Positions 3,844-35,640 of a stretch of 54,024 nucleotides of DNA are shown one piece after another. Under the pieces are notes generated by a model that saw only the letters and a list, made by a program, of their open reading frames with translations, was not told the origin of the DNA and searched no databases. The stretch covers positions 1 to 54,024 of the forward strand of contig CAMNJW010000003.1 in NCBI GenBank assembly GCA_946541845.1. The letters are read 5' to 3'. This DNA comes from an uncultured Methanobrevibacter sp. GTDB lineage: Archaea > Methanobacteriota > Methanobacteria > Methanobacteriales > Methanobacteriaceae. The position numbers and the translations under genes are program-made. The first letter of the stretch is position 1, and every line of letters begins with the position of its first letter.

Positions 3844-4224
3844 TATTTAGCTACAAAGCAAGTTTTTGCAATAGCCAGCCATATGGTATACAAATTTTAT
3901 TTTATTAAAGATATAATATAAAGATTACCTATGAAATATTTTAGAAAAGTTTATAAAGTATAATAAAACATTTTATTTTTAAGATAAATAGCCCCAAAAG
4001 TAATACTTTTTATTTTTGATTAAAATCATTTTAAACTAAAAAATCAATATTTAAATTAATTTTTTTTAAAAATACTAATTTTAAAAATGTTAAAAAAATA
4101 AATAAACTTAAATGACTTATATTATGCAAATTAAGTTAAAATAAAAAATTATTACTTATAATCTTTTGAGTAATAAATAATACTAAAAGTAATACAAAAT
4201 TTTTGTCATCAAAAATATACTCTA
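3844..4224. other. Divergent mcrB / mmp10 intergenic region
   Basis: Very AT-rich stretch without a credible gene, between the divergent starts of mcrB and mmp10. It holds the presumed mcr promoter boxes on the minus strand (about 3913-3923 and 3951-3959). It also holds a perfect 15-base palindrome AAAAGTA-A-TACTTTT at 3996-4010 and a related half palindrome AAAAGTAATAC at about 4187-4197. These are candidate operator sites for the mcr or mmp10 promoters; the regulator is unknown. Confidence 0.4.
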
Positions 4225-33187: not shown

Positions 33188-33829
33188 ATGAATGTCTATT
33201 TTAAGGATGGAAACATTGCAACCAAGAATATGAATCCTGGAGTGTCAGTGTACGGAGAGGAACTAATTCAAGAAGATGATGAATATAGAATATGGAATCC
33301 TAGACGTTCAAAATTATCTGCAGCCCTTTTAAATGGATTAAAAAATTTGGAGCTTGAGGACACTTCAAATGTATTATATCTAGGTGCATCAACCGGAACA
33401 ACCGTTTCACATATTTCAGATATTGCAATTAATGGAAGGATATATGCCGTTGAATTTTCACCAACAACAGCGAAAAAATTGGTCCAACTCTCTCGTCAAA
33501 GGCTTAATATTGCTCCGATTTTAGGTGATGCAACCAAACCTAAAGGATATCTCAACTTAGTCGAAAAAGTGGACTTGGTGTACTGTGATGTGGCCCAGCC
33601 AACACAAAGTGAATTGTTTATGAAAAACATGAACATGTTCTGCAAGGATGATGGACTCGGACTTTTAATGATTAAGGCTAGAAGTATTGATGTTGTACAG
33701 AAACCTAAAAAGATTTTCAAGGAACAAGAGAAGAAATTGAAAGAGAAAGGTTTTAAAATTATTGAAAAAGTCAAACTGGAACCATACGAAAAAGACCATA
33801 TTGCATTGCTAGTAGAGAAAAATTTTTAA
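33188..33829 (+). CDS. flpA: Fibrillarin-like rRNA/tRNA 2'-O-methyltransferase
   Basis: Methyltransferase (213 aa) of archaeal C/D RNPs. The SAM-binding segment YLGASTGTTVSHISDI is near residue 60, the catalytic region VYCDVAQPTQSE near 130, and the GLLMIKARSID lysine strand near 157. It is paired with Nop5 in one operon. The length is normal. Confidence 0.96.
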   Translation: MNVYFKDGNIATKNMNPGVSVYGEELIQEDDEYRIWNPRRSKLSAALLNGLKNLELEDTSNVLYLGASTGTTVSHISDIAINGRIYAVEFSPTTAKKLVQLSRQRLNIAPILGDATKPKGYLNLVEKVDLVYCDVAQPTQSELFMKNMNMFCKDDGLGLLMIKARSIDVVQKPKKIFKEQEKKLKEKGFKIIEKVKLEPYEKDHIALLVEKNF

Positions 33830-33964
33830 AAAAAAATAAGTATTTTTCATAAGCAAATGGGCAAAAAAATAGCTGTGAGAAATATAAAAAAATACTACAA
33901 AAAACCCAAAAAAGTATTACTTAGATACCTTTTTATACTAGAAAATTAAATATTACATATGCTA

Positions 33965-34066
33965 ATGCAAATAAAATAAAAGTTCATTGAAACGTCCTTT
34001 AGGTTGATTCACTCTATTAATCACTCCATTTAACTAAAGCCTAAAGGCATGAACTTATTTTATTGA
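33965..34066 (+). ncRNA. Candidate structured RNA or inverted-repeat element
   Basis: AATAAAATAA plus GTTCAT on the left (33970-33987, two extra As between them) pair with ATGAAC plus TTATTTTATT on the right (34049-34064). Inside, CCTTTAGG (33996-34003) pairs with CCTAAAGG (34040-34047), and TGATT / AATCA may pair within the loop. A TATA-like TTTTATAC at 33931-33938 would start a plus-strand transcript near 33957-33960, just before the outer stem. The strand is not certain. It could instead be a small mobile-element remnant. Confidence 0.4.
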
Positions 34067-34120
34067 AATACTATTTTTTAAGAGATTAATTTTAAAAGAC
34101 TATTTTATATTTTTTGTTTA

Positions 34121-34137
34121 AAAAAGTATTACTTTTT
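34121..34137. repeat. 17-base perfect palindrome AAAAAGTA-T-TACTTTTT
   Basis: Perfect palindrome around a single central base, directly followed by a TATA-like TTTTTATG. The same core occurs at 33912-33922 and, with the other central base, at 3996-4010 upstream of mcr. Confidence 0.5.
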
Positions 34138-34481
34138 ATGGCCTTGTATTCGAGTATAAAATAACAGATTTATTCAAAATTTCAAATGATTTGAATGTAA
34201 ACAACAGAATTAATTTTCAGTTGAATACAATATCACAACTTGAAAATAAAATTAATGTTAAAATCTATTCTAAAAATCAACACCATACCAACCAATTTAG
34301 TCTCACCTAATATTTCCAGACATAGGAAAAATCTGGTTGAAAATTTCTATCAAGAATATTAAAAATTCATACAAGCAAAATATATTTAATTTAAAATTCC
34401 ATCAAATAATCACTTATTAATTTAAAATACATGAAGCTATTTGATAAAAAATAAGTAAAAAAATAGTAAGTGTATATGAAA

Positions 34482-35640
34482 TTATATCTTTTCAGAAATT
34501 ACGTCAAAAATGATTTTTGCAATTTCCCTTTTTGATGCCAATGGGACAGCCAGGACCTCATCATCGACAATTAAAACCTCATTATTATCTGATCCAAAAT
34601 GACATTCATTTTTAGAAATATCATTAGCAATGACCAAGTCTGTACCTGCCTGTTCAATTTGCTTTCTTGCACATAAAATTATATCCTCTTTTGAAATATT
34701 GAACTCGGCTTTAAATCCAACTAAGAAAATATCCGGGTTGATTTTTTTAACTTGACGAATGATTTTAGTTGTTGGTTTAAGATTTAAAAACAAGGAACTA
34801 TTAGAATCTATTTTTTTATCGTCCTTTTTCTTGAATTCAAAATCAGAAACCGCCGCAGTGGATATAAATATGTCAAAATCAGGTATCAGACTTAATATAA
34901 CCTCATTCATTTCACTACTTGTTTCAACATGAATCACATCAAAAACAGATGGGATTTCAACACTAACATTGGCAACAACCAAGGTTAAGTCCGCTCCCCT
35001 GATATAAGCCTCTTTTGCAAGTGCCAAACCCATTTTTCCGGAGGACTTATTGGTAATTCCCCTTACGGAATCAATCGGTTCATAGGTTCCTCCAAGACTA
35101 ATTAAAATTTTTTTGCCTTTAATAAGATCAATCCTTCTTGTTTAAATTAATTGTTCTTAATGATTCAAGAACTATGTCATCTTTTGATGGGAATTTAGCT
35201 TTTCCTTCATCCATTCTTGGATTAATGAAACTAGCAGAACCTTCCTGTTTAATCTTATCAATATTTTCTTTAATCGCCTTAAACATTGAGTCATGCATTG
35301 ATGGGACAAAAATAATCGGTGTGTCATGTCCATAAGCAGTAATCAAAAGAGTAGAAATAGGATCATCAGCAATTTTATGCGCAAATTTTGAAATAGTGTT
35401 TGCGGTGGCCGGTGCAACCAATATCAAATCCTCTTGAGAATACTTAACATGCTCAATTTTACCGGTCAACTTAGTTACAACTTCATTTCCTGTGGCGAAT
35501 TCCATAGCATTTGGATGTATAATTTCACAAGCGGCCTCACTCATGAAGCATTTAACCTCAACATCATTACGTCTAAATTCACGGGCCAGTTTAATTGATT
35601 CAGTAGCGGCAATGCTACCTGTAACACATAATATAATCAT
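34482..35640 (-). pseudogene. coaBC: Phosphopantothenoylcysteine decarboxylase / phosphopantothenate-cysteine ligase, frameshifted
   Basis: Bifunctional coenzyme A enzyme broken into two frames. The CoaC half (35128-35640, 170 aa) starts MIILCVTGSIAATESIKLAR with SD GGAG and shows APATANTISKFAHKIADD and VPSMHDSMF. It ends at a TGA at 35130-35128. The CoaB half is open in the +1 frame from 35141 to 34482. From 35132 it reads IDLIKGKKILISLGGTYEPI and then ITNKSSGKMG, about 216 residues. Together about 386 aa, the normal length. The frames overlap only between 35144 and 35128, so one inserted base (or two lost) there explains the break. It may be a real mutation, a programmed shift or a sequencing error; both halves otherwise look healthy. 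The next ATG in the CoaB frame (35033) would lose the nucleotide-binding segment. Confidence 0.85.

Follow-up and report, generated by a model that had tools for sequence, protein, structure and literature searches.

The window analysed here, the whole stretch of 54,024 nucleotides from an uncultured Methanobrevibacter sp., contains a short element between two genes that could fold into a hairpin, raising the question of whether it encodes an RNA of its own and, if so, what controls that RNA and on what it acts. The first-pass annotation had described a possible structured RNA beside the fibrillarin operon, made of two nested complementary arm pairs around a 36-nt loop and standing between convergent genes. 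Reading of the ORFs bore out the convergent arrangement, and we located both arm pairs and the loop (34004-34039, enclosed by the inner arms) exactly where they had been placed. The left side of the outer arm consists of AATAAAAT (33970-33977) and AAGTTCAT (33980-33987) and its right side of ATGAACTT (34049-34056) and ATTTTATT (34057-34064), giving 16 pairs with a 2-nt bulge at 33978-33979; the far AT portion of this arm is missing from many relatives. The folding energy of the hairpin is -21.4 kcal/mol, against a mean of -10.9 (sd 2.6, z -4.1) for dinucleotide shuffles, none of 200 of which matched the native value. A two-conformation switch, in which the inner left arm would also pair with CTAAAG, had been suggested as well; this sequence is present (34034-34039), but the stretch varies freely in relatives, and the suggestion was dropped. 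The operator palindromes, the conserved 5' segment and the conserved loop described below were absent from that annotation.

The element occurs as a single copy in its own genome, represented by an assembly of 1.58 Mb that is 84.7% complete. When 67 genus genomes were searched at the DNA level, most of them yielded strong matches, and 56 full genus copies were aligned with MAFFT (alignment A1), leaving out the contig-cut pieces L058-L063 and the short chance matches L064-L065, with L001 being a duplicate. Covariance model R1 had matches in 65 of the 67 genus genomes and in 95 of 138 family genomes, and model R2, built from a cross-genus alignment of 51 loci (A2), had matches in 99 of 150 genomes of the order, representing nine of 19 genera, all inside the own family; in the 12 order genomes outside this family, R2 found no match. 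A pattern made from the invariant parts retrieved 39 stretches from a sequence collection, and all of the matches listed were from Methanobrevibacter. In both model searches, each of the other matched genomes had one full match, the extra rows being contig-end pieces; we did not find the many near-identical copies by which the annotation would have recognised a mobile element.

To assess the structure, we counted pairs in 48 distinct rows of A2 (18 pairs, 863 cells). We found that 97.6% of the cells were paired and that two-sided changes had occurred at 10 of the 18 pairs, including seven of the eight in the inner stem, counts that lean towards the structure because A2 was fitted to model R1. 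None of 500 shuffles was as good on any of five measures, and slid structures were far worse. In A1, aligned by MAFFT, most pairs were invariant and two-sided changes were seen at only 2 of 18. The covariance search and the check for compensating changes recommended by the annotation thus revealed such changes among the relatives. Read on the + strand, the pairs include 44 G-U cells versus three A-C cells, the pattern to be expected if this strand encodes the RNA, with which the position of the promoter agrees. The element is a conserved structured RNA gene on the + strand.

The R1 and R2 matches on this gene span 33960-34072, and the T-run at 34074-34079 likely marks the 3' end, giving a free-standing gene with a likely extent of about 110-120 nt (Table 1). 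The TATA-like box noted upstream by the annotation, TTTTTATACT, is conserved in relatives. Across genera, TGCTAATGCAA begins 43 of the 51 copies in A2, and the segment TGCTAATGCAAAT might contain the start site, a 3-bp 5' hairpin or both; since it sits roughly at the expected transcription start, it may in part be an initiator. Within the loop, UCACUC or UCACAC is found in 50 of the 51 cross-genus copies. An NTG-initiated mini-ORF at the 5' end, ATGCTAATGCAAATAAAATAA, was rejected, its stop being lost in several genomes as judged by eye. With both structure and promoter conserved, and the stop of the mini-ORF not, the sRNA was scored as a non-coding independent gene.

Table 1. Positions of the RNA gene, its parts and control sites, its neighbours and related features
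Feature	Position	Strand	Basis or remark
Operator palindrome between mcrB (-) and mmp10 (+)	3999..4007	.	Pattern search; gene identities from NCBIfam
Fibrillarin gene, left syntenic neighbour	33188..33829	+	ORF; beside the RNA in many relatives
Upstream operator AGTATTACT	33913..33921	.	47 nt before the conserved 5' end; pattern enriched genome-wide
TATA box TTTTTATACT	33930..33939	+	Conserved, at near-fixed distance; cbiM promoter laid out likewise
sRNA gene, likely extent	33960..34079	+	R1/R2 model matches, single copy, T-run; ends approximate
Conserved segment TGCTAATGCAAAT	33960..33972	+	Invariant columns in 56/56 genus copies
Outer stem, left arm AAGTTCA	33980..33986	+	Pairs with 34050-34056; 95.5% of cells paired
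Inner stem, left arm CCTTTAGG	33996..34003	+	7/8 pairs with two-sided changes; 99.0% of cells paired
Loop motif 1 UUCACUC	34008..34014	+	UCACUC in 56/56 genus copies
Loop motif 2 CACUCCA	34022..34028	+	ACUCC in 42/56 genus copies, 40/51 across genera
Inner stem, right arm CCTAAAGG	34040..34047	+	Covariation with left arm
Outer stem, right arm TGAACTT	34050..34056	+	Pairs with left arm
Downstream operator AGTATTACT	34125..34133	.	212 bp from the upstream operator
Two ORFs, presumably coaB and coaC, right syntenic neighbours	34482..35640	-	ORFs, synteny
Candidate target, membrane protein	L103:2798-3952	-	Leader scan, conserved GAGUGA

The surroundings of the RNA are also maintained. Synteny with fibrillarin was seen in 35 of 36 distant loci examined, across genera, the exception (L199) being a short contig without a match to fibrillarin or to the right neighbours, which we take to be coaB and coaC. 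Within the genus, fibrillarin and the RNA are separated by other DNA in several genomes, and the coaB/coaC side remains close. Upstream inserts were seen in L005, L008, L009, L012, L015, L024, L028, L036, L038 and L039; these carry adhesin-like reading frames and, in L024, an integrase-like frame (both by eye), and the downstream side is constant. The region upstream of the element looks like an insertion hotspot, and several contigs terminate at or near the element. The coaB and coaC frames are separate here and in the other genus members checked, but form a single ORF of 396-397 aa in two loci of genus g9 (L175 and L177), a difference that is a natural split or fusion. Having its own conserved promoter, one fixed locus, covariation and no dependence on fibrillarin, the element answers to the independent RNA that the annotation had offered as one of two readings.

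What controls this RNA is suggested by a palindrome with the consensus AGTAWTACT, located immediately upstream of the TATA box and present again downstream of the gene. Among the 51 A2 loci, the upstream operator is exact in 47 and has at most one mismatch in 48, lying 47-49 nt before the 5' end; the downstream operator is exact in 44 and has at most one mismatch in 48; and operators are missing at three loci. The distance between the two is 212-213 bp in most genus genomes and 222-268 bp elsewhere. Spacing in 14 lineages best fits a 10.5-bp period (R 0.60, naive p about 0.007), but the 14 values were hand-picked as lineages that are not independent, and the spacing is only suggestive of DNA looping.

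The same operator is found at nickel genes. Sites were counted with AAAAGTAWTACT, the palindrome including its flanking A-run, using the reversed pattern as control. There were 29 matches versus two for the control in the own genome, corresponding to 23 distinct sites, and 1586 versus 290 summed over 66 genus genomes. Of the 23 sites, 17 are accounted for by the RNA and by loci related to nickel: the RNA is flanked by two, a nik-type ABC transporter cluster has seven (one at its far end), two each are found between hmd and hmdC, at cbiM and at a heavy-metal P-type ATPase gene, and single sites lie upstream of hypAB and between mcrB and mmp10. The remaining six comprise two at C104, one each at C1, C18 and C83, and one at tfrA (L101:4029), an operator-like site 26 bp upstream of a frame for the CoM/CoB fumarate reductase subunit TfrA, whose gene has no evident link to nickel. 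HypA, HypB, Hmd, HmdC, McrB, Mmp10 and one CbiM model passed their NCBIfam cut-offs, and the P-type ATPase exceeded those for heavy-metal ATPases; components of the nik-type transporter were below cut-off, and nickel is its likely but not certain substrate. The layout from operator to TATA box is near-identical, letter for letter, in the promoters of cbiM and the RNA. In the first 1.6 Mb of a second genome, G007, in which genes at operator sites were assigned by eye, 13 of 18 sites were at nik, two cbiM-like, nikR-operon, mcr and RNA loci. The RNA promoter belongs to the nickel regulon and carries the operator expected of an sRNA under a nickel regulator. In addition, the operator between mcrB and mmp10, together with the same site in G007, suggests that mcr itself may be under this control in the genus. 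In nickel-limited Methanothermobacter marburgensis, Hmd is described as rising and Mcr and both [NiFe]-hydrogenases as falling (PMC12350162, PMC3087415), and a nickel regulon containing hmd and mcr fits the changes in Hmd and Mcr. Genus g12 is also rich in operators (84 versus 6 for the control in G116, for example), with no RNA among the matches listed, which counts against the scheme proposed below; in that genus another RNA, or protein genes only, may be under operator control.

The protein that binds AGTAWTACT is probably NikR. In the own genome we found no other nickel-responsive ribbon-helix-helix regulator; the NikR there passes the nickel responsive regulator model NF002169 and is encoded close to a gene for a hydrogenase maturation protease. 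A single NikR_C (PF08753) match per genome is present in 63 of the 67 genus genomes, and the Helicobacter pylori NikR half-sites TRTTA/TAWTA, as described (PMC5385501), resemble the core of the palindrome; we infer NikR as the binder from this gene content and resemblance. The described H. pylori half-sites are, however, spaced by 20 nt (PMC5385501), unlike the AGTAWTACT pairs at other loci, which are 31-33 bp apart. The assignment is also weakened by three genomes (G030, G025 and G009) that have the RNA and NikR_C but have lost the operator on both sides, since the N-terminal DNA-binding segment of their NikR is nearly unchanged by eye; their genome-wide operator counts versus control are 9 versus 6, 10 versus 4 and 11 versus 4, respectively.

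The unpaired, conserved loop invited a search for mRNA partners. A scan of 319 leaders (274 kb of the own genome) ranked the gene of a membrane protein first, at -25.4 kcal/mol, and showed a modest excess over control (8 versus 3.2 +/- 2.1 at -22 kcal/mol; 62 versus 50.5 +/- 13.3 at -16 kcal/mol). In G007 the orthologue ranked 20th and the true loop performed like the reversed loop, and extended loop complements with at most three mismatches did not exceed the reversed control in any of the six genomes searched, for example five versus six in the own genome, where one of the five is the RNA's own locus. The leader of the membrane-protein gene was compared in 29 genomes, 23 of which are the genus without six deeper members. 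GAGUGA was the commonest 6-mer at -60 to -15 in this leader (19 of the 23 genomes), although only five of 1767 G007 genes have it at that position, and it was retained in 17 of 21 leaders when the two discovery genomes were omitted. It is broken in four of the 23 leaders and missing in all six deeper members, whose loops keep UUCACUC. Pairing of each loop with its own leader had a mean of -13.9, versus -7.2 for shuffled leaders and -13.0 for species-swapped loops; swapped pairing thus nearly equals own pairing, and no clear co-variation between loop and target site was detected. An operator is located within 200 bp upstream of the gene in 12 of the 29 genomes. Pfam has no match to the protein, and NCBIfam gives only one, weak and below cut-off; of 30 genomes searched in other genera, 28 have orthologues with a conserved C-terminal part. 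From these comparisons, this leader is the best candidate target of the RNA. The leaders of three [NiFe]-hydrogenase large subunits in G007 contain no good loop site, one gene of an frh-like cluster ranked 4th there with a doubtful start, and two 9-mers complementary to the 5' segment lie near starts in that genome. Nop5 was rejected as a target, GAGUGA being found in one M. smithii-like genome only among 46 leaders.

We consider it moderately probable that the element is an sRNA of the nickel regulon, produced when nickel is short, probably under NikR control, and working through pairing of its loop. When nickel is plentiful, nickel-bound NikR would repress the sRNA gene, possibly bridging both operators. 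In nickel shortage the RNA would accumulate, as the uptake genes would, and its open loop, via UCACUC(UA) and, where present, ACUCC, would pair with mRNA leaders or ribosome-binding regions and alter translation or stability of the mRNAs, the cell thereby retuning its proteins to low nickel.

Other explanations differ in what they make of the hairpin itself. Convergent flanking genes and nearby T-runs would suit a hairpin or terminator acting at the DNA level with no RNA function, but the excess of G-U over A-C cells is unexpected of a DNA palindrome, and the unpaired loop and the promoter are conserved, making this very unlikely. A C/D or H/ACA guide for RNA modification would account for the nop5-fibrillarin genes that adjoin the RNA in many genomes. 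Rfam 15, however, gave no match at gathering cut-off in the whole window, and at E<=5 the best match in 33830-34480 was RF00085 at 34181-34245 (19.1 bits versus 50), a chance C/D match outside the element. By eye, C/D boxes and an ACA end are absent, and the RNA is intact in several genomes without adjacent fibrillarin. No C/D or H/ACA match was found and the control sites link the RNA to nickel genes instead; its position beside fibrillarin seems a matter of synteny, not of function, and a guide RNA is scarcely tenable. The small mobile remnant, the other reading of the annotation, might be thought of where contigs end at or near the element or where other genes lie upstream, yet one copy here, one full match per genome elsewhere and cross-genus synteny refute it, and we give it virtually no credence.

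The remaining alternatives accept a nickel-regulon RNA or its operators but change one part of the scheme. In one, the loop motifs would serve as a sponge for an RNA-binding protein instead of pairing with mRNA; the motifs are short and repeated, leader pairing is without global enrichment and the target site without clear co-variation, but one leader does have a conserved complement of motif 1 and a candidate protein is lacking, so that we regard a sponge as unlikely. In the other, the regulator would not be NikR, or the metal would be cobalt or zinc, and the signal would differ. The three NikR-bearing genomes without operators and the spacing unlike that of known NikR operators favour this, and the P-type ATPase and CbiM nearby can serve other metals; on the other hand, nickel is the common factor of hypAB, hmd/hmdC, mcr and the nik-type genes that share the operator, and the described responses of Hmd and Mcr in a nickel-limited methanogen (PMC12350162), as well as the H. 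pylori half-sites (PMC5385501), point the same way. A different regulator or metal therefore seems unlikely to us.

In function, a nickel-regulated sRNA acting through its loop comes closest to two known groups, the sRNAs that NikR represses in H. pylori and those regulated by nitrogen in Methanosarcina mazei. The former, Nrr1, Nrr2 and IsoB (NikS, the subject of PMC8035401), likewise have a nickel-regulator operator at an sRNA promoter (PMC5385501) and, as here, stand beside the nickel regulon, but they are bacterial, and the binding and nickel response measured for them are inferred for our RNA (PMC5385501). Two operators flank the gene here, unlike in H. pylori, and the likeness drawn here is one of description. 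sRNA154 and sRNA41 of M. mazei are likewise archaeal and intergenic, are described as starvation-regulated and base-pair through their loops with leaders or ribosome-binding sites; they respond to nitrogen, belong to another order and have two loops, whereas our RNA has one long stem and loop (PMC5867862). For protein genes, NikR regulation of nikMNQO was predicted in methanogens by Rodionov et al. 2006, as cited in PMC10617489, which involves the same regulator and a transporter of the same type. The M. mazei sRNAs are not linked to the element by any Rfam or model match, and no nickel-controlled archaeal sRNA was found in the open-licence literature. RyhB is a bacterial sRNA of iron metabolism under Fur. 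RyhB-type metal-sparing sRNAs, which PMC5385501 names, share the logic that a metal regulator represses an sRNA adjusting the production of metal enzymes. That our RNA is the nickel counterpart of RyhB in Archaea, allowing methanogens to change over their proteins in nickel scarcity, with NikR bridging two operators separated by some 20 helical turns or more, is conceivable but doubtful; sparing of nickel enzymes is hypothetical here. In this reading loop motif 2, which resembles the anti-Shine-Dalgarno end of the 16S rRNA, may also compete at ribosome-binding sites.

Nickel limits methanogens, in which methyl-coenzyme M reductase and the [NiFe]-hydrogenases need this metal. Under strict nickel limitation, M. 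marburgensis is described as losing both cytosolic [NiFe]-hydrogenases and cutting Mcr to about 10%, and transcription of mvhAGDB had earlier been reported not to fall (PMC12350162), leaving scope for post-transcriptional control. The RNA would not explain that case, since the order was searched and no match lies outside its own family. For the gut and rumen methanogens that do carry it, the RNA probably helps the cell to cope with nickel shortage, and it offers a concrete handle on how these organisms adjust to nickel.
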